Under the pieces are notes generated by a model. That model saw only the letters and a list, made by a program, of their open reading frames with translations, did not search any database and was not told where the DNA came from. The translations under genes and the position numbers were made by a program. From Verrucomicrobiota bacterium (lineage in GTDB: Bacteria > Verrucomicrobiota > Verrucomicrobiia > Limisphaerales > PALSA-1396): a stretch of 64,000 nucleotides of DNA. Shown here piece after piece: positions 2,473 through 13,015 of the stretch (the stretch's first letter is position 1; every line of letters starts with the position of its first letter). The stretch spans positions 62,001-126,000 of the forward strand of contig JACQFP010000026.1 of assembly GCA_016200005.1 (NCBI GenBank). The letters run 5' to 3'.

Positions 2473-3852
2473 TTAGCCAAAGAGTTTCCTGATCCACGTG
2501 ATGACGCCGAAGAAATCTAACAGATATTTTACGTTGAGCGAAACAATGATGCCCGCCGTCAGCCAGGCCAGCACTTTGATCCACAACGGATTTACAAATT
2601 GGCCCATCTTGACACGGCTGCTGGTAAAAATGATCAACGGGATGACAGCGAACGAAAGCTGTAAACTCAGCACCACCTGGCTGAAGACCAGTAATTTAGC
2701 CGTACCGCTCTCACCGTACATCGCTGTGCAAATCACCGCCGGTATGATGGCGATCAACCGCGTGATGAGCCGCCGCAACCACGGACGCAGGCGGATGTTG
2801 AGGAAGCCTTCCATGACGATTTGCCCCGCCAGCGTGCCGGTGAGCGTGGAGTTTTGGCCGGAGGCCAGCAGCGCCACGGCAAAGAGCGCGCTGGCAACCG
2901 TGACACCGAGCGTCGGGCTGAGGAGTTGATAGGCGTTCTGAATTTCAGCCACGTCATTTTGCCCGCGTGTGTGGAACGTGGCCGCCGACACGATGAGAAT
3001 CGCAGCGTTGATGAACAACGCGAACATCAGTGCCAGCGTGGAATCTAGCGTCGCGTACTTGATCGCTTCCGTCTTTCCTTCCACGTTCTGTTCGTACTTG
3101 CGGGTTTGCACGATGGACGAGTGCAGGTAGAGATTGTGCGGCATCACGGTCGCGCCGAGAATACCGATGGCGACATAAAGCATCGACGGATTTGTAATGA
3201 CCTCAAAACGTGGCACGAAGCCACCCAGCACGGCGCGAATGTCTGGTCGAGAAAAAATTATCTCCGCCAGGAAGCAGCCACCGATGGTCAGGATGAGCGT
3301 AACAACGAGCGCTTCGATGTAACGAAAGCCTTTGTTTTGAAGAAACATCACCGCCAACACGTCGAGTGCGGTGATGCAGACGCCCCAGACCAGCGGAATT
3401 TTGAACAGCAGATTCAGCGCGATGGCTGATCCGATGACTTCCGCAAGGTCACAGGCGCAAATCGCGACTTCACACAGCAGCCACAAGACAATCGCGGTTG
3501 GCCTGGAATAGTGATCGCGGCAGGCTTGCGCGAGGTCGCGTCCCGTGACGATCCCGAGTTTCGCACAGAGCGATTGGAGAAGGATCGCCATCAAGTTGGA
3601 AATAAGGATGACGCTCAGCAGCGTGTAGCCAAACGCTGATCCACCGGCGAGGTCGGTCGCCCAGTTGCCCGGGTCCATGTAACCCACCGCCACGAGGTAG
3701 CCAGGCCCGGAAAACGCCCACAACTTGCGCCAGAAACTGAATCCCTTCGGCACGGGGATGGTGCGGTTGACTTCTTGAAGGCTGGGCGTCTGGCTGGAAA
3801 TCCGCCAGCCTTTGTCAGACGAAACCGGCTCGGTGGTTTTGTCGGTGTTCAT
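2473..3852 (-). CDS. mntH: NRAMP-family divalent metal transporter (MntH-like)
   Basis: A 459-residue inner-membrane protein with about eleven transmembrane segments. Both metal-site signatures are intact: DPGN at residues 60-63 in the first helix and MPHN at 237-240 in the sixth helix. In characterised NRAMP proteins these Asp, Asn and Met residues bind Mn2+ or Fe2+ during proton-coupled import. A cytoplasmic N-terminal extension of about 40 residues is longer than in E. coli MntH. The gene follows the outer-membrane barrel by six bases and shares its promoter and palindromic operator, the arrangement expected for metal-dependent repression. Mn2+ is the likeliest substrate; Fe2+ cannot be excluded. 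Confidence 0.92.
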
Positions 3853-4893: not shown

Positions 4894-5781
4894 TCAGTTG
4901 CCGCTGGCGCGGCCCAATCGCAACCAGGCCACAACCGGGAAATGGTCGCTGGGGTATTGCCCGTTCTCGGCGAACGTAACGATTTCCGTGGCGTCAGTCG
5001 TGAATGGGCCGCGCGACAGAATCCAGTCAATACGATGCCCGCTTCTTCCTGGCGTGTTGTAACCATGAAAAGTGTTATAGCCCTCATTCCCCCGCTTTGT
5101 GGTCGCGTTCCAGGTGTCGGTCAATCCACCATCGCGCACGAGAATGTCATAAACTTTGTTCGAGCCGGCGGTGGAGTTGAAGTCACCGACCAACAAAATC
5201 GGCAACGCGGATTTCAAAGACTGGATGCGTTGATTAATCAACAGCGCCGCTTTTTCGCGGGCTGGTTGGAGGGCGTGATCGAGGTGGGTGTTCCAAAAAT
5301 AGAATTCCTTTCCGGTATTTCGATCATGGAATCGAACCCATGTGACCATGCGGCGATTGTCGTTGCCCCACGTCGAGGACGCGATGACTTCCGGCGTGTC
5401 CGACAGCCAGAAGTGATCATATTCCAGCGGCTCAAACCGGTCCTTCCGATAAAACACCGCCATGAACTCGCCGCGGCTGCCGCCATCGCGACCGAGTCCG
5501 ATCCATTCGTACTGCGGCAAGTCCGACGCCAGATCCTTCAACTGCTGGTAGAGCCCTTCCTGCGTTCCAATCAAATCCGGCGACATCTTCTCGATGCAAT
5601 GACGCATGACCGGGCGGCGTTGCTGCCAGGCGTTGGGCGGTTTTGAACTGGCGTAACGAAGGTTGAAAGTCATCACACATAACGCGTCAGGCGGCGAGGC
5701 GGCGTTCTCCGCGCTTTGAGCGGACAATAGCGCACTGAGAGCAGCCAGGAGACTGCAAACGATTGTTTGAAATGAATTCAT
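4894..5781 (-). CDS. Secreted endonuclease/exonuclease/phosphatase-family hydrolase
   Basis: A 295-residue protein with a Sec signal peptide (about residues 1-24, ending near SAQSAE) and one EEP (DNase I-like) domain. The metal-site and catalytic residues are visible: N40 in MTFNLRY, E75 in GTQEG, the GDFN motif at 199-202, D252 in RIDWI and the D279-H280 pair in SDHFPV. Members cleave phosphodiester or phosphomonoester bonds in nucleic acids, sugars or lipids; periplasmic export favours a nutritional or lipid substrate. Its ATG overlaps the TGA of the upstream cytochrome gene (ATGA), so the two are translationally coupled, which is an odd pairing. Confidence 0.88.
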   Translation of the reverse strand: MNSFQTIVCSLLAALSALLSAQSAENAASPPDALCVMTFNLRYASSKPPNAWQQRRPVMRHCIEKMSPDLIGTQEGLYQQLKDLASDLPQYEWIGLGRDGGSRGEFMAVFYRKDRFEPLEYDHFWLSDTPEVIASSTWGNDNRRMVTWVRFHDRNTGKEFYFWNTHLDHALQPAREKAALLINQRIQSLKSALPILLVGDFNSTAGSNKVYDILVRDGGLTDTWNATTKRGNEGYNTFHGYNTPGRSGHRIDWILSRGPFTTDATEIVTFAENGQYPSDHFPVVAWLRLGRASGN

Positions 5782-7010
5782 TTTCTATTCTCCGCTTTGG
5801 GTTTGTTCCCTTCCTGGGGTGGCGCCAGAAGCCCTTGGTGAAAATCCCCAAGGTGCTCAGCGAATTGAGCGGGATTGAAGTCCGGCAGCGATTGGGCGTC
5901 TTTGAACAATCGCTTGAGCGCGGACTGGACTGGCTCGTTCTTGTCCAACTCTGGCAGCGCCGTGACCAGGCGGTCGAGGGCGAGCACCAGACGCTCGGCG
6001 CGACGGGCTTGGAGCGGCTGGGAAATGGAAGAGTCGCGGAACTCGCTGCTTGTGCTGGCCAGAGATGATAGAAAAACAGGTATGCCCTTATCCCGCAACA
6101 CATCAAATAAATACTTTGCTCCAGCATCGGTTGCCTGCTGAACAGATTTTGCGTCTCCGATTGCTGAAGGTATTATCCCGCCTTTTGGATTATTCATGTG
6201 GTTGAACAACCAGACCAATCCTTTCCAGCGGTTGATCTGATTTTCCGTCGGCGATTTTTCGCGCGCGAGTTGCCAGCTCATTTCACGCAAGGCTACTTGC
6301 TGGCCGACTAACCACGCTTGCGCGCCGTTCCAATTCGTCGATTCGCGCCAGTGCTTTGGTTCGGACACTGATTGGCCGTCGAGTTCGAAAATCAGTTCGG
6401 GATGACCCGCTTGCAGCAAATCGGCATCGACGTTTTGGTGGCACGCGACGCACGTGTTTGCGCGCACACAAAGATTCTTCAGGTCGCGCATCCCAGCATT
6501 GACCCGGTCCTGATGACTGAAGTCCGTTCGGGTGTGTGAGCGCAACCAATTCTCCGCCGGCCCGTGACAACTGCCGCAGGAAACACCTTCCTCGATGTCA
6601 ACGTCTTTAGCCAGTTGGGTCGCCGGCACGGTTTGGAACGGCGCATGGCAAACCGTGCAGCGCGCGTCCCGCGTCGGGTCGCCGATTTTCAATGCTTCGG
6701 CGATGCGAGCGGAGCGGGCCGTAGTCAGGGTTGTGTAGGAGCGGGAATGGAAATCGAGTTTCGACCAGATGGTGTATTGCTGCCGGTTTTCGCCTGCGCC
6801 GCCGTGGCAACTGGAGGAACTGCAGGACTGTGCGCCAAGAAATTTGGGGTGCGCTGATTCAGTTGGTTTCTCCTGGGCGTGTGTCGGAAGCATGGTGCAC
6901 AGCGAAAGCATCACTCCGAGGAAGTTCGTCGCATAGGCTGGAAGTTGACAGACCTCGTTGGCCGATGGCTGGTCAAGCCGTCGTCTTCGACTTAAACATT
7001 TGCCGGGCAC
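5778..7010 (-). CDS. Multihaem c-type cytochrome (cytochrome c554-like)
   Basis: A roughly 410-residue periplasmic protein with three canonical haem motifs (CTVCH, CGSCH, CVACH) and one unusual CX4CH motif (C63-C68-H69, CSSSSCH) close to the N-terminus. A variant first motif followed by GG is a recurring trait of cytochrome c554/HAO-related families. The second half (after about residue 250) has no haem motif and is helical. The N-terminus is uncertain: GTG 7010 gives a long leader with RRRR and a hydrophobic segment ending at PTHAQ, while the GTG/ATG around residue 33 leaves too short a leader. It diverges from the cNMP-ferredoxin gene with about 29 bases between starts. Confidence 0.8.
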   Translation of the reverse strand: MPGKCLSRRRRLDQPSANEVCQLPAYATNFLGVMLSLCTMLPTHAQEKPTESAHPKFLGAQSCSSSSCHGGAGENRQQYTIWSKLDFHSRSYTTLTTARSARIAEALKIGDPTRDARCTVCHAPFQTVPATQLAKDVDIEEGVSCGSCHGPAENWLRSHTRTDFSHQDRVNAGMRDLKNLCVRANTCVACHQNVDADLLQAGHPELIFELDGQSVSEPKHWRESTNWNGAQAWLVGQQVALREMSWQLAREKSPTENQINRWKGLVWLFNHMNNPKGGIIPSAIGDAKSVQQATDAGAKYLFDVLRDKGIPVFLSSLASTSSEFRDSSISQPLQARRAERLVLALDRLVTALPELDKNEPVQSALKRLFKDAQSLPDFNPAQFAEHLGDFHQGLLAPPQEGNKPKAENRK

Positions 7011-7039: not shown

Positions 7040-8878
7040 ATGCAACCAATTAACGAAAAGTTGGAAGTCGGTGAGCCTTTGTCCACCGATCAGCTTCTCG
7101 AATATCTCCCCGCGTTGAAAGAAGTTCCCCGCACCCAGGTGGACAATTGGGCCAAGGGCGCGGCGGTGTTGCATCGGTTCAAGGCAGGCGACGTCGTTTG
7201 CGAAGAAGGCGAGTTTGGTTCAACCGCGTTCTACATCATTTCCGGCAAGGTCGATATCTTCATCGCCAATCAGCTCGCTCACGTCAAAACCCGCTCCGCT
7301 GGCGGCACCGGGTTCTTTGGTCGCGGCGTCGCGCAGATGAAAAGTTTCATGGTCACGGACCGGGAGGAAAAGCGCGACCGTAAAGAGCGCAGTTTCATTC
7401 CCATCGACGCGTCGGTGGACCTTTCGATCACCAAACCGCTGGCTCAATTGGGACCGGGAGAACTATTCGGGGAAATGACCTGTCGCACTTTTTTGCCGCG
7501 CTCGGCCACCGTGCGGGCGGTGGAAGACTGCGTGATGATCGAAATGCTGCGCGTGATTCTCGACATGCTGGTGGGCACGCGCCAGATCGATACCACCACC
7601 AAAGCCACCACGAAGGTCAAAGCGCCCACGTTCAAGGGCACGTCGTTCAAAGCTGAAATGGACCGCAAATATCGCGAGCGCTCGTTGAACAATCATCTGC
7701 GAAGCGTGCCGTTGTTTGGGTCGCTGGACGAAACTTTTCTGAACCACCTCAACAAAAACGTGGAACTCGTTTCCTTCAACAAGGGCGACGTGATTTGCAA
7801 GCAGAACGATCCGGCCGACTCCTTTTATCTCATCCGACAAGGCATGGTCAAAGTCGCGCAATCGCTGGCCGGCGGTGAAATGGTTCGCACTTACCTGGGT
7901 CGTGGCGATTACTTTGGAGAAATTGGTTTGTTGCTGAACCAGCCTCGCATCGCCACCTGCTCGGCCCTGGACACCGTGGACGTGGTGCGCATTAAAGCCG
8001 GCGATTTTAATTTCATGCTCGGCCAGTTCCCTGACGTGCGCCAGTTGTTGACCCAGGTCGCCGAGGCGCGCCTGAAAACCGATCGCGACACCGGCTTGCC
8101 GGTTGGCTTGAACATGGACGAGTTTTTGAACCAGGGATTGTTCGAAGCGCAGAACCTGCTGCTGATCGACCTGGAGCATTGCACCCGCTGTGATCTTTGC
8201 GTGCGCGCCTGCGCCGACGCGCACGATGGCGTCACGCGTCTGCTCCGCGACGGATTGCGTTACGACAAATACCTGGTCGCGACCGCCTGCCGCACCTGTC
8301 GCGATCCGCTGTGCATGACGCAATGCCCCGTCAGTTCCATCCGCCGCAAGGACAATCTGGAGATCATCATCGAGGACTGGTGCATCGGCTGCGGCAAATG
8401 TTCAGAGCTTTGCCCCTACGGTAACATCAACATGCACCCGGTCGAGTTGATGGAAACGCGCAAACCCGAAACCACCGCCATCTCGGCTGCCAAGGCATCG
8501 GTTGCGCCCGTGACGGCGACCCTTGCCGCGCCCGCTGCCGTACCGCCTTCCACGCCCACCACGTCGCCGCCTGCGAAGACGGGCAACGGTGAAAAGCGCG
8601 CCAGCTTCAATCTCATGGAGTTTTTCGGATTGAAACGGGCGGCGAAAGAGGAAGGAAAAAAATCCTCGGCGCGCAAAGCCGCGACTTGCGATCTCTGCAC
8701 GGAATTGAACATGCCGAGTTGCGTTTATGCCTGTCCGCACGATGCGGCGATGCGGGTGGACCCGAGCGACTTTTTTGCGCGCCAACTGGCTGGCCGGCGC
8801 GACCTCGACATCGCCCGCTGGCAGCCGACCAAAAAATTCGACGCCCGCACAACGCACAAGGCCGAAACTGACTTTTGA
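7040..8878 (+). CDS. Tandem cNMP-binding domains fused to a four-cluster ferredoxin
   Basis: A 612-residue soluble protein. Domain 1 (about residues 40-185) and domain 2 (about 220-340) are cyclic-nucleotide-binding folds, both with intact phosphate cassettes (GELFGEM...PRSATV and YFGEIGLL...PRIATC, including the conserved Glu and Arg). From residue 380 a DmsB/NrfC-like iron-sulfur module follows, with four cysteine quartets: C381/384/387/391, C417/420/425/429, C448/451/454/458 and C550/553/561/565. An Ala/Pro-rich linker of about 80 residues splits the third and fourth quartets. It probably passes electrons between the cytochromes encoded around it, gated by a cyclic nucleotide; this is inference. 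The ATG at 7040 is chosen because the frame upstream is non-protein-like. Confidence 0.85.
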   Translation: MQPINEKLEVGEPLSTDQLLEYLPALKEVPRTQVDNWAKGAAVLHRFKAGDVVCEEGEFGSTAFYIISGKVDIFIANQLAHVKTRSAGGTGFFGRGVAQMKSFMVTDREEKRDRKERSFIPIDASVDLSITKPLAQLGPGELFGEMTCRTFLPRSATVRAVEDCVMIEMLRVILDMLVGTRQIDTTTKATTKVKAPTFKGTSFKAEMDRKYRERSLNNHLRSVPLFGSLDETFLNHLNKNVELVSFNKGDVICKQNDPADSFYLIRQGMVKVAQSLAGGEMVRTYLGRGDYFGEIGLLLNQPRIATCSALDTVDVVRIKAGDFNFMLGQFPDVRQLLTQVAEARLKTDRDTGLPVGLNMDEFLNQGLFEAQNLLLIDLEHCTRCDLCVRACADAHDGVTRLLRDGLRYDKYLVATACRTCRDPLCMTQCPVSSIRRKDNLEIIIEDWCIGCGKCSELCPYGNINMHPVELMETRKPETTAISAAKASVAPVTATLAAPAAVPPSTPTTSPPAKTGNGEKRASFNLMEFFGLKRAAKEEGKKSSARKAATCDLCTELNMPSCVYACPHDAAMRVDPSDFFARQLAGRRDLDIARWQPTKKFDARTTHKAETDF

Positions 8879-9840
8879 CAAACGCCCGACTCGTGATCAT
8901 CGACCGCCATCATCTACCGTGGGCCGTGTTTGTGGTTGTCGCAACCGCGGCGGCCATCGTCGTCTATCTCGCCAATTTCCATCCGGATTCGCTCCCGTTT
9001 CCTGTGACCCTGCCGGCGTTTCTTGGTCCGACGCCGCCGTTGCGCGGCACCGTGGGTGGCAGTCCGCTGGGATTGATCTTCGGCATCGCGTCCGCGCTGA
9101 TTTTTGTATTCGCGGCGATGCTCGGTGCCCGTCGCAAAAAGCCTGCTTGGCGCGTGGGCCGCGTCCAGCTTTGGCTGAAAGCGCACATCTGGCTGACGGT
9201 GCTGACGATTCCACTGGTACTGCTTCATTCCGGATTTTCCACTGGCGGACCGATGACGAAACTGCTGCTGGCGCTTTACGCTGTAGTGATGGTGAGCGGT
9301 TTCTATGGACTGGCGTTGCAACATTTTCTCCCGCGCTTGATGAAGGACGAACTCCCACAGGAAATAATCTTCGAACAAATCCCGCATATCCTGGAACAAT
9401 TGCGCGAAGCCGGGCAAAAGCTGCGTCAAAGCCTGGAGTCAGCCGCCGTGGCAGCGCCCGCGGTGACGGCTTCCGCAACGAGCGCACCCGCTGGGGCGTT
9501 GCCGAAAGCGGATCCTGCTGATGATTCAATTCTCATATTGAAAGCCTTCCTGGATCACGAAGCGTTGCCTTACTTGGGCGCGCGGCGGGGAGAGAAATTG
9601 CATCTCGGCAACCAGCGCACTTCCGACGAACTCTTTCGCACGTTGAAGATCAGCATTACCGCCAACTGGCACGCTGAAGCGGAACGTCTTCAAAGCTGGT
9701 GCGATGAGCGGCGCCAACTGGATCGCCAGACCCGGCTGCAACACTGGCTCCACGGCTGGCTGTTCGTGCACGCGCCGTTTTCGTTTCTGCTGCTGGTTTT
9801 GACCGCCTGGCACGCCGTCGTAACCTTGTTGCGCTATTAA
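8875..9840 (+). CDS. Membrane protein with haem-b-like helix histidines
   Basis: A 321-residue protein starting at TTG 8875, which overlaps the TGA of the ferredoxin fusion gene (GTG 8893 is an alternative). Hydrophobic segments lie near residues 14-33, 64-82, 101-118, 127-147 and 295-315. Histidines sit in or beside them (KAHIWL, LLHSGF, WLHGWLFVHAPF, TAWHAVV), as in cytochrome b-type ferric or ferredoxin:quinone reductases. Between segments four and five is a soluble helical insertion of about 140 residues rich in Ala and Glu. It lies between the iron-sulfur protein and the decahaem cytochrome, so a quinone-linked membrane electron carrier is likely. No named family is certain. Confidence 0.7.
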   Translation: MTNARLVIIDRHHLPWAVFVVVATAAAIVVYLANFHPDSLPFPVTLPAFLGPTPPLRGTVGGSPLGLIFGIASALIFVFAAMLGARRKKPAWRVGRVQLWLKAHIWLTVLTIPLVLLHSGFSTGGPMTKLLLALYAVVMVSGFYGLALQHFLPRLMKDELPQEIIFEQIPHILEQLREAGQKLRQSLESAAVAAPAVTASATSAPAGALPKADPADDSILILKAFLDHEALPYLGARRGEKLHLGNQRTSDELFRTLKISITANWHAEAERLQSWCDERRQLDRQTRLQHWLHGWLFVHAPFSFLLLVLTAWHAVVTLLRY

Positions 9841-9849
9841 ACTGACAAA

Positions 9850-11259
9850 ATGGCCCAACCCGACCGAACTCAGAAACAGGTTGCCGAACGGTACAAAGGC
9901 AATCTGGACTATTACAAAAAACCGCACTACTTGCGGCGCGGGAAGTTTTGGGTGGTAACCATTTTGGTGACGCTCGGCGTCGCGAGCATGTGCGCTTATC
10001 ACTGGTGGGGCGGCGAAAAGTTCTACAGCTCCGGCAGCATCTCCCGTCCGCACGCTCATTTCGCTAACAATTGCGGCGCCTGCCATGCCGGTGGCAGTTT
10101 GCTTCAGGAAATCAAATCCTCATCGCGCAACGCCATTGACACCGCCTGCCTGCAATGCCACCAGGGCCACGCCTTTCATCAACCGAACGTGGTGCAAGAC
10201 CATTCCTGCACCGCCTGTCACCACGAGCACAAGGGCCAAGGCCCGATGAAATCGCCTGACAACGCCAACTGCCTCGTCTGCCACGCGGACACAGCGATCT
10301 TGGAAGCGTCTTTTCAAAAGGGAAAAAATCTGCCGGCGGAAGCTTTTGACTATCGTCCGAGTCACGGCCTCGCGCTCTTCAAATCGCCGCGCCCATCGCG
10401 CGGTCACACGCAAGTCGTTCATGCCTTCGCCACCGACCATCCGGAATTTCAAGTTGTCGTTGAAAAACTCAAGGACCCGGACACGCTCAAGTTCAATCAT
10501 CAACTCCATCTGGCATCGCCCGACATTCCATCAGTGAACGGAAAAAAACTCGACTGCGCTGACTGTCACCAACCCAATGCCGCCGGCGTGTTCCACCAGA
10601 GAATCTCCTTTGAAGCCAACTGCAAGTCCTGCCACTCACTTCAATTTGACGCGAAGAATCCCGAATTGTTGATCCCGCACGGGAATCCGGAGTTCGTGCG
10701 CGCCTTCCTGCGCAGCCTGCCCGTTCAATACGCCGACCTGGCGCGCCGCAAGGGAATGAACGCCGAAGGTGACGTGGCGGATTTTGTCAAACGGCAGATG
10801 CTGCAAATTCGCGACGAGGTCTTGAGCGGTGAAAATCTGGAGCAGCAAGTTTTCTTCAGCGACGCCCGGACAGGCCCAGTTGGCCGGATTGGCCGGTTGG
10901 ATGATCAAGGCCGCGCCCGCTTTGCCGGCTGCGCCTATTGTCACGAAGTCAAACCGGTTGCGGAATCGTCGCCGACAATCACCAAGCCGATCATTCCAGA
11001 CCGCTGGTTGATTCGCGGTCGATTCAATCACGCCAAACACCTCACCGTGGGCTGTGTCAAATGCCACGATGTCAGCCACAGTCGGGAAACTTCAGACATC
11101 CTCCTGCCTTCTAAAGCTGCTTGCGTCACCTGCCACAGTCCGCAAGGCGGCGTGGCACACGATTGTTCGACGTGTCACAGGTATCATGCACAAAGTAAAA
11201 CCGGCGTCCCGCCTGTTCCGTTGGGGAAAGAGACTGCGGCGACTCATTTCGGTCGATGA
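9850..11259 (+). CDS. Membrane-anchored decahaem c-type cytochrome
   Basis: A 469-residue protein with a short cytoplasmic N-terminus, one membrane anchor (about residues 33-53) and ten CxxCH motifs: CGACH, CLQCH, CTACH, CLVCH, CADCH, CKSCH, CAYCH, CVKCH, CVTCH and CSTCH. The first four are closely packed, the next two are central and the last four cluster near the C-terminus, as in cytochrome c3/c7-type repeats. It follows the membrane protein by nine bases and completes the ferredoxin-membrane-cytochrome set. The expected role is periplasmic electron transfer between a membrane quinone site and an oxidase, reductase or external acceptor; the partner is not in the window. Confidence 0.88.
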   Translation: MAQPDRTQKQVAERYKGNLDYYKKPHYLRRGKFWVVTILVTLGVASMCAYHWWGGEKFYSSGSISRPHAHFANNCGACHAGGSLLQEIKSSSRNAIDTACLQCHQGHAFHQPNVVQDHSCTACHHEHKGQGPMKSPDNANCLVCHADTAILEASFQKGKNLPAEAFDYRPSHGLALFKSPRPSRGHTQVVHAFATDHPEFQVVVEKLKDPDTLKFNHQLHLASPDIPSVNGKKLDCADCHQPNAAGVFHQRISFEANCKSCHSLQFDAKNPELLIPHGNPEFVRAFLRSLPVQYADLARRKGMNAEGDVADFVKRQMLQIRDEVLSGENLEQQVFFSDARTGPVGRIGRLDDQGRARFAGCAYCHEVKPVAESSPTITKPIIPDRWLIRGRFNHAKHLTVGCVKCHDVSHSRETSDILLPSKAACVTCHSPQGGVAHDCSTCHRYHAQSKTGVPPVPLGKETAATHFGR

Positions 11260-11303: not shown

Positions 11304-12872
11304 TTACAGCGACGGATTCCGCGGAAATTTTGCGTAAGGCAGGCGTGTACCGCGAAAAAACGAGCGGTCGGCTCGGATGGGGTCCGGCGGCAGGAATGCC
11401 ACCGTGCCGGATGCGGCGATGAGGTCGTCCTGATCCACGCCGTCGCCACTAACACCAATCGCCCCGATCAACACGCCGTTGCGATAGAGCGGAAAGCCGC
11501 CGGGAAAGATTGTGATGCCGTTCGGCAGGCTGGGATTCAGCGTCGGCGAGTTGGTGATGGCCGCGTTATTCAACGGGTTCGTGCCTTGAAACAGCGAGTA
11601 AATTTCCTGCCAGCCGAAGAACGGGCCGGGTGAAGTGTTCACAATGCCGGGCGGATACAGACTCTGCGCGAGAAAACCGACGGTGCGTGAGGAGTAAGCG
11701 CGATTGGTGTCGGAGAAAAACACGGCGGTGCGCGCCTTTTGCACCGAGACATCCCAACTGAACATTGTCGCGCCCGGCGTGCGCAATGTGCCCAGGACAC
11801 TTGGCGCGACACCGGCCGCGTTTGGATTGTTGACCACCGAGATGAATACTTGCGCCGGTTGCCCGTGCGGCAGACGAATACCCGCGCGCGTGATCGCGGC
11901 GCGTTGCGCGGCAAGTTTCAAAATGTTTGTAACTTCACTCGCTGTCAGGCGTGGCTGTCCGTCAATCGTACCGGGAATCGGGTCGTCGATGATCGGCGCG
12001 CGCAGTTCATTCGTGGTATCGCCAACAACGACCAGCGGATAGCTGACCAGTGGTGAATTGGTGATTGGAAATTCGGCAAGATTTGTGCCGATGCTGCCCA
12101 GCGGCGCCACGGCGTTCAGGTCGAGACGCGTCTTGGTGCGGACATACGGCACGCGTATCCCGTCGATGAACACATGCGAGCCAAGGATTTTTTTGGCCGG
12201 TTCAAAACCAATTTGTCCCGCCAGAGCCACGTCTTCATCCGTGTCCCGCTTCAAAACCGCCGCCGGCAGATTTTGAACTTCCACCGCGTCGGAGCCGTCA
12301 CCGGCCACACCGACACCGCCGATGAGTTTCCCATTCTTGAACAGCGGCACGCCGCCGGGAAAACCGTCCAGGCCGCCCAGCAGGGGAGTCGGCACCACAC
12401 CGCCATTCGTCCCACCGTTCATACCCGGAACGTAAGTGGTGGGGTTCTTGTAGCGGTTCACGTCCGTGAACGGCAGGTTGGAAAAGTTCACGCCTACCAG
12501 CGGGCCGGGCGGCTTGTTTTTCACACCGGGCGGAAAATTCTGCTGAACAATGAACAGCGCCGTGCGCGAGCTGAACGCGTGCTGGTCACTGCTTAGGAAT
12601 GAAGCCGTGCCCGCGCGAGCAATCGCTTCGGCGACGAGATTCGTGAACGCTGCCGTCGCCGGTGTGGCTCCATTCACGCTCCAGACGCCCAGCACAAAAC
12701 CTTCGCGATCCACCACGGCGATGACGCTGTTGGGGGAAACCTGGCTGGCGCGGGTGACGGCCTGGGCCATGACGGTCGCCACGTCGTTGGAGGTCATCTG
12801 ACCGAAGGCGGGAACCGCCGTCAGGAGCAAGAGGAGGAGCTGGCCGGTGCGTTGATTCACCCAACGAATCAT
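11304..12872 (-). CDS. Exported protein with two GlcG/HbpS (haem-degrading-type) domains
   Basis: A 522-residue exported protein. ATG 12872 gives a good signal peptide (RTGQLLLLLLTAVPAFGQ). Two related halves follow, each with the GlcG/HbpS pattern: a VSxNSVIAVVDREGFVLGVW-like start, an ARTAxFF...SSRT segment, then GGxPLFKNGxLIGGVGVAGDG in the first half and GGFPLYRNGVLIGAIGVSGDG in the second. Single GlcG/HbpS proteins are about 140 residues; here each domain is enlarged by insertions and the two are fused. HbpS binds haem, but ligands vary in the family. It converges on the decahaem gene, which makes haem binding an attractive but unproven idea. Confidence 0.8.
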   Translation of the reverse strand: MIRWVNQRTGQLLLLLLTAVPAFGQMTSNDVATVMAQAVTRASQVSPNSVIAVVDREGFVLGVWSVNGATPATAAFTNLVAEAIARAGTASFLSSDQHAFSSRTALFIVQQNFPPGVKNKPPGPLVGVNFSNLPFTDVNRYKNPTTYVPGMNGGTNGGVVPTPLLGGLDGFPGGVPLFKNGKLIGGVGVAGDGSDAVEVQNLPAAVLKRDTDEDVALAGQIGFEPAKKILGSHVFIDGIRVPYVRTKTRLDLNAVAPLGSIGTNLAEFPITNSPLVSYPLVVVGDTTNELRAPIIDDPIPGTIDGQPRLTASEVTNILKLAAQRAAITRAGIRLPHGQPAQVFISVVNNPNAAGVAPSVLGTLRTPGATMFSWDVSVQKARTAVFFSDTNRAYSSRTVGFLAQSLYPPGIVNTSPGPFFGWQEIYSLFQGTNPLNNAAITNSPTLNPSLPNGITIFPGGFPLYRNGVLIGAIGVSGDGVDQDDLIAASGTVAFLPPDPIRADRSFFRGTRLPYAKFPRNPSL

Positions 12873-13015
12873 GTTGCCGGAATCAGGGAGCGGCAAGTTC
12901 AAATTCCGTGGAGAAGCGGCGCCACGATTTTTGTTTCCCTTTTGCGCGACCGTTTCTATTATGGGCCACGGTCGCACCAATCTGCGATTTTTGGAATGAA
13001 TCGCACCCAAATATT

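Follow-up and report, generated by a model that had tools for sequence, protein, structure and literature searches.

The described inner-membrane entries to extracellular electron transfer, namely CbcL/MtrH/MtoC, CymA and ImcH, act on the quinone pool as quinol oxidases or quinone reductases, each in the form of one polypeptide, according to PMC6295460. In freshwater Verrucomicrobia, clusters of porin and multihaem cytochrome genes have been proposed to serve extracellular electron transfer, with an octahaem cytochrome and a porin of at least 20 transmembrane motifs among their products; the inner-membrane step is labelled simply "ET in IM", and the main text contains none of the terms "cyclic nucleotide", "ferredoxin" or "Fe-S" (He et al. 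2017; PMC5615132). Here, we describe three adjacent genes from the same phylum whose products are a candidate for that inner-membrane step. They occupy positions 7040–11259 of a 64,000-nucleotide stretch from a Verrucomicrobiota bacterium (assembly GCA_016200005.1, contig JACQFP010000026.1, positions 62,001–126,000; this whole stretch is referred to as the window) and encode a soluble protein in which a pair of cyclic-nucleotide-binding (CNB) domains precedes four [4Fe-4S] motifs (CNB-CNB-4x[4Fe-4S]; here CNB-FeS), a five-helix membrane protein, and a membrane-anchored decahaem cytochrome.

The likeness to CbcL/MtrH/MtoC, CymA and ImcH lies in an inner-membrane module that would feed multihaem c-type cytochromes, and CbcL, as presented in PMC6295460, also joins a two-haem b part to c haems. 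Unlike in CbcL/MtrH/MtoC, the b part (8875–9840) and the c part (9850–11259) are separate genes here. In contrast to CbcL, CymA and ImcH as that source portrays them, the trio also has a sensor-bearing cytoplasmic protein with four [4Fe-4S] clusters, and genes for NAD(P)H flavoproteins lie nearby in relatives. The loci treated here also differ from the clusters in the main text of He et al. (2017) in that their porin-like partners accompany proteins with five or ten haems. A literature search, with subscription journals and bioRxiv outside its reach, found no description of the CNB-FeS fusion or of the module. The trio is a real, conserved combination of known parts that is apparently undescribed.

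The three-gene locus

The source genome measures 6.54 Mb, and the window lies on a contig of 209 kb. The first gene (7040..8878, plus strand, ATG start, stop codon included) encodes P0001, a protein of 612 residues whose layout was assigned from Pfam, alignment and a structural model. A longer open reading frame of 715 residues listed at this place was rejected as the true gene, its start being too early, since most near relatives align from about residue 1 of the protein starting at 7040. The family cNMP_binding (PF00027) matches P0001 with an E of 1.6e-36 in three stretches, alongside several 4Fe-4S families, and the protein, having no obvious export signal, is taken to be cytoplasmic. By alignment, both phosphate-binding cassettes are canonical, with Glu and Arg present: the first, GELFGEMTCRTFLPRSATV (residues 140–158; 7457..7513), has Glu145 and Arg154, and the second, RGDYFGEIGLLLNQPRIAT (residues 287–306; 7898..7957), has its own phosphate-binding Arg. 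The tandem resembles PKA and PKG by sequence and by model. The CNB model aligned with 5bv6, the CNB-B domain of PKG II, at Z 21.9 (145 residues, rmsd 2.1) and with 1cx4 at Z 20.7 (252 residues, rmsd 16.4). P0001 shares tandem CNB domains, the same cassette and a structural Z of about 20 with the PKA regulatory subunit and PKG, and differs from them in that its output is an Fe-S relay and not a kinase.

Family matches and alignment place the four [4Fe-4S] cysteine quartets at residues 381–565 (8180..8734). All 16 cluster cysteines are present, and all 16 are kept in 97 of the 100 rows of the family alignment, which includes three duplicate rows; in L072, L075 and L076 one of the cysteines is replaced by Ser. 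The best Fe-S matches are FDH3 beta, HydN, DmsB and HycB3, and the layout and cysteine pattern are those of the DmsB/FdhB/HycB proteins, from which P0001 differs in its two leading CNB domains, the long insert ahead of the fourth quartet and the lack of a molybdopterin partner on the contig.

Gene 2 (8875..9840, plus strand, TTG start) encodes P0002, a predicted two-haem b cytochrome of 321 residues with five transmembrane helices and a long cytoplasmic helical domain between the fourth and the fifth (AlphaFold model, pLDDT 90). Its candidate haem ligands are H104 and H118, present in 96/96 proteins, H299 (92 of 93 aligned) and H313 (90 of 90 aligned), three rows being duplicates. The members of each pair (H104/H118 and H299/H313) stand 14 residues apart within one predicted helix, as in the b561/FdnI/ferric reductase group, where two such pairs with a spacing of about 13–14 occur in two helices. 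A positive loop ahead of the third helix and a long charged loop ahead of the fifth would put H104 and H299 near the cytoplasm and H118 and H313 near the periplasm. P0002 itself matches no Pfam family, and a profile search of solved structures gave no credible match. Weak family matches were found among 66 members, to cytochrome b561 in 4, DUF4405 in 8 and Ferric_reduct in 2, the last being a weak sequence link to ferric reductases.

Gene 3 (9850..11259, plus strand) encodes P0003, a c-type cytochrome of 469 residues with exactly ten CXXCH motifs and one N-terminal transmembrane segment as anchor. Exactly ten motifs occur in one frame in 73 of the 82 gene 3 relatives uncut by contig ends, and in 78 when split frames are counted across; two others have more than ten. 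Among the matches listed (25 of 78 for gene 1), none of the three proteins scored above an NCBIfam cut-off.

An earlier reading of the window, made from the sequence only, had proposed an electron-transfer module composed of a soluble protein with two intact cassettes and four cysteine quartets, a membrane protein with helix histidines directly after it, and a decahaem cytochrome. The first and last of these proteins are as it described them. The membrane protein does follow directly, and its start even shares four bases (TTGA) with the stop of gene 1, while its conserved histidines had to be corrected to the four named above. The gap between genes 2 and 3 is nine bases; this spacing and the overlap suggest that the trio may be co-transcribed. 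A sigma-70 promoter scan returned no sites, and terminator-like sites were not above the level of shuffled sequence.

Conservation across phyla

Named genomes of bacteria and archaea were scanned for relatives. Of the 467 relatives that this gave, the best 80 were combined with earlier loci and the window into a set of 97 distinct loci, after duplicates (L054, L056, L061 and L093) had been dropped, and the proportions given here therefore describe the nearer relatives rather than the whole family. The relatives come from Verrucomicrobiota, Acidobacteriota, Rokubacteria, Planctomycetota, Zixibacteria, Riflebacteria, Wallbacteria, Ignavibacteria and others, although these phylum names were taken from the titles of metagenome-assembled genome records and may be wrong. 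The complete trio is found at 88/97 loci, with gene order and strand identical in 86 of them (the exceptions are L100 and L102). Six of the nine incomplete trios stop at a contig end, and three (L075, L107 and L117) do not. Such conservation across phyla excludes a chance arrangement and bears out very strongly the co-occurrence that the sequence-only reading had offered as a check on its module.

Within the phylum, gene 1 was matched at E<=1e-30 in 9 of 194 genomes, and the membrane protein was matched in 13 of 39 near relatives at E<=0.001, a threshold that includes distant b cytochromes. In an independent draw by membrane protein, 20 of 288 phylum genomes matched at E<=1e-8 and 14 at E<=1e-36. 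All 14 genomes with the strong match have a CNB-FeS gene, adjoining in 13 and on another contig in one. Six Verrucomicrobiota genomes with a weak match to the membrane profile showed no CNB-FeS gene in the stretch examined, nor did a genome-wide search of three of them at E<=1e-15; these were rejected as trio members, regarded as other systems and kept out of the counts. In one genome (G159), genes 1 and 2 occur once more, in a broken copy (L157).

Linked NAD(P)H flavoproteins

Four unrelated types of NAD(P)H flavoprotein adjoin the trio, at 53/97 loci in total. An NqrF-like flavoprotein occurs at 18 loci (one Verrucomicrobiota clade plus L133), a NuoE-NuoF-like fusion at another 18 in Acidobacteriota and Rokubacteria, and an FHA-bearing Pyr_redox flavoprotein at 13; of three examples of this last type that were analysed, two also have a 2Fe-2S domain. 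The fourth type, an NDH-2-like protein with its own C-terminal CNB domain, lies beside the trio at six loci (L096:4816-6477, checked with Pfam, and L094, L097, L099, L076 and L088), two of which also have NuoEF. In one genome (G295), the CNB-FeS protein itself bears a NuoG-like N-terminus: at L160:5704-10243 (G295:C49), a NuoEF-like gene is followed by a NuoG-N-terminal/CNB/CNB/4x[4Fe-4S] fusion, with the other two genes of the trio on another contig. The case for NAD(P)H as the donor is based chiefly on this repeated recruitment of different NADH enzymes to a single core, and the conduit is likely fed in this way in relatives.

A different three-gene set without CNB domains was seen at five loci (L149–L153), where an FNR-type flavoprotein of about 600–700 residues (split in L151) is found with a b cytochrome of 250 residues and a seven-haem cytochrome.

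A proposed transmembrane conduit

The trio likely functions as a conduit for electrons across the inner membrane. In many relatives, the linked flavoprotein would pass in electrons from NAD(P)H, and the cytoplasmic four-[4Fe-4S] protein would hand them to the membrane cytochrome. There, two b haems would be stacked across the inner membrane, one held by H104 and H299 on the cytoplasmic side and the other by H118 and H313 on the periplasmic side. Electrons could then move to the decahaem cytochrome, which would be anchored in the membrane and face the periplasm, and from there to further cytochromes of the envelope and, where one is present, to an outer-membrane porin-cytochrome unit. The tandem CNB domains, much like those of PKA and PKG, would bind cyclic AMP (cAMP) or cyclic GMP (cGMP) and control either docking or electron transfer. 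Such a route, from the cytoplasm to the envelope cytochromes, may bypass quinones. On balance, we favour this reading as a whole, in which the trio would be a transmembrane conduit, fed by NAD(P)H in many relatives, with a regulatory CNB input that binds cAMP or cGMP.

A comparable arrangement is seen in the NADPH oxidases, whose haem b membrane helices carry electrons from cytoplasmic NAD(P)H outward under the regulation of signals. NOX, FRE and STEAP proteins would all share with the trio the passage from cytoplasmic NAD(P)H to an outside acceptor through haem b, under signal control. In contrast, P0002 stops after its fifth helix and has no FAD/NADPH domain, and the Fe-S relay and the decahaem cytochrome are separate proteins.

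Several observations weigh against the conduit reading. One other genome of the genus, 82% complete, was examined and gave no match. No flavoprotein is linked to the trio at the window's locus or in its nearest relatives, and the window's genome has no clear NqrF-like flavoprotein (one weak match with an internal stop) and none of the FHA type, while its NuoEF-like genes are located in other gene clusters. The case for P0002 as a two-haem b wire consists of its histidine pattern and the weak family matches; Foldseek gave nothing below E 0.83, and a follow-up fold search was dominated by long helical bundles, with STEAP1 and STEAP2 at Z 6.8 and 6.3 and the STEAP1 comparison covering 151 residues at rmsd 4.5. 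The porin-like partners described below are judged by sequence alone to be probable outer-membrane barrels. Finally, only the first CNB site is intact in 20 loci (L091, L092 and the 18 that have an NqrF-like partner), and the key Arg is gone from both CNB domains in 18, mostly those with the FHA flavoprotein, with the family retained in both cases.

Possible nucleotide sensing

In ligand binding, the Glu and the phosphate-binding Arg of the cassette are the residues of consequence. The first site was scored at 94 loci, being unreadable in L066, L101 and L108, and its Arg is kept at 76 of them; the cassette of the second is intact at 58/97 (L108 was scored as lacking it merely through truncation). 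Both sites are intact at 56/97 loci, which include the window and members of the Acidobacteriota, Rokubacteria and Planctomycetota, and the status of three loci could not be scored. The groups of the gene 1 tree largely match the ligand residues and the partner, and the 18 loci without Arg at either site fall into 16 and a further two, L114 and L117, that are placed elsewhere in the tree.

As for the ligand itself, the window's genome has four matches to class III cyclases, so that this organism is probably able to make cAMP or cGMP. The expected ligands of PF00027 domains are cAMP and cGMP and not cyclic di-GMP, which was rejected on that ground. Direct gating of electron flow by a nucleotide, as the sequence-only reading proposed, is possible: it gains from the 56 loci with both sites and from the cyclase matches, and it fails as a general rule in view of the 18 loci that lack Arg at both.

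It could be that the conduit is real but escapes gating by the CNB domains, which would act instead as scaffolds for dimerisation or docking or sense some other ligand. The loci with a degenerate second site or with neither Arg fit this account, and most of them have an intact trio, yet the ligand residues are kept at both sites in several phyla, and the CNB domain on the NDH-2-like partner and the FHA domains of other clades suggest a need for signal input. We consider this alternative somewhat unlikely. An FHA domain was also found by Pfam inside the NqrF-like flavoprotein at L046:8642-12507, where the CNB-FeS protein has an N-terminal extension that resembles FHA by eye. Site loss in some groups and FHA domains in others together indicate that signal input is common and that nucleotide control is not general.

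Near many of the FHA-bearing versions (L100, L102, L111, L116, L117, L119, L125 and L038) lies a gene cluster resembling Ser/Thr protein kinases, of which one example was read by eye. The decahaem cytochrome of L100 carries an FHA domain as well.

A signal-controlled valve would make sense in the proposed conduit, since a route from NADH to the outside without a proton pump would waste energy; the NADPH oxidases offer a parallel. A bolder formulation, to which we give somewhat less than even credence, is that of a cyclic-nucleotide-gated "electron channel", an allosterically controlled wire that would lead from NADH out of the cell without quinones in many phyla. Its fixed core would be the Fe-S protein, the two-haem b protein and the decahaem cytochrome, around which both the NADH flavoprotein and the sensor, CNB or FHA, could be swapped. 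Were this true, a second messenger would switch respiration at the level of the protein, as happens with ion channels. More broadly, an NAD(P)H-run module with a second-messenger sensor fused to its electron relay would be a different kind of connection between metabolism and the outside, and whether cyclic nucleotides control respiration post-translationally would become directly testable. The trio also hints at a function for phyla that abound in soil and sediment.

Possible route of electron exit

The fullest arrangement was found in four Verrucomicrobiota genomes (L144–L147, loci of 13 kb), where a single run of genes encodes an HbpS-like protein, a c554-like cytochrome, an NqrF-like flavoprotein, the CNB-FeS protein, the membrane protein, the decahaem cytochrome, a porin-like protein and a decahaem protein with LVIVD repeats. 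One or the other of two porin-like families is present at 25/97 loci. Outer-membrane barrels characteristically end in an aromatic residue, and the two families end in F (12/12) and in Y or F (17/17 unbroken, uncut cases, a count that excludes the fam10 members of L088, in three fragments, and of L038, cut by a contig end). In the window's genome, a porin-like gene and a gene for a secreted LVIVD decahaem protein are paired at G000:C2:7150-14223 (L137), unlinked to the trio. This decahaem protein is 55% identical to a Zixibacteria protein; a gene of 260 residues lies between it and the porin-like gene, and succinate-dehydrogenase-like genes adjoin (by eye).

These genes bear on an alternative in which the trio supplies a periplasmic reductase or a detoxification cytochrome, such as the c554-like one, and has no part in extracellular electron transfer. 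Its attraction is that the c554-like family is found at 63/97 loci and the porin-like genes at fewer. Against it stand the gene runs of L144–L147, which unite the trio with a porin-like and a decahaem gene, and the barrel-like ends of the porin-like families, and we regard it as unlikely.

The quinone pool

It is also conceivable that P0002 is linked to quinones, either oxidising quinol much like CbcL or reducing quinone in the manner of the formate dehydrogenase gamma subunit, in which case the trio would work as a quinol:cytochrome c oxidoreductase, or else form a branched complex. The precedents are favourable, insofar as PMC6295460 presents CymA, CbcL and ImcH as quinol oxidases and likens the membrane part of CbcL to the two-haem b cytochromes HydC and FdnI. 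A quinol oxidase, however, would have no need of a cytoplasmic Fe-S protein with four clusters, and varied NAD(P)H flavoproteins are linked in relatives. We regard a quinone-linked trio as unlikely.

Direction of flow

The same parts could, in principle, run the other way, from periplasmic cytochromes to NAD+ or ferredoxin, as a membrane-potential-driven and nucleotide-controlled system of electron uptake. The list of parts is identical, conduits are reversible in principle, and the sequence does not fix a direction. The passage of electrons from NADH to multihaem c cytochromes is downhill, however, and inward flow seems quite improbable beside the outward flow that the proposed conduit would have.

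A relic of a molybdopterin oxidoreductase can be dismissed, given that the family has no match anywhere on the window's 209-kb contig, as the sequence-only reading had remarked for its own part of the DNA.

Neighbouring genes

Upstream of the trio, on the minus strand, is a gene for a divergent c554-like cytochrome with three CXXCH motifs and one CX4CH (5778..7010; its start is uncertain and probably lies within the open reading frame). Downstream, also on the minus strand, an HbpS-like double-domain protein is encoded at 11304..13010, a recurrent neighbour found at 18/97 loci. Beyond the linked flavoproteins, five other CNB proteins of the window's genome were read, and none of these five, from a larger number of CNB matches, is an NDH-2 fusion. 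An Nramp-type metal transporter gene lies further upstream of the trio, at 2473–3852 of the window.

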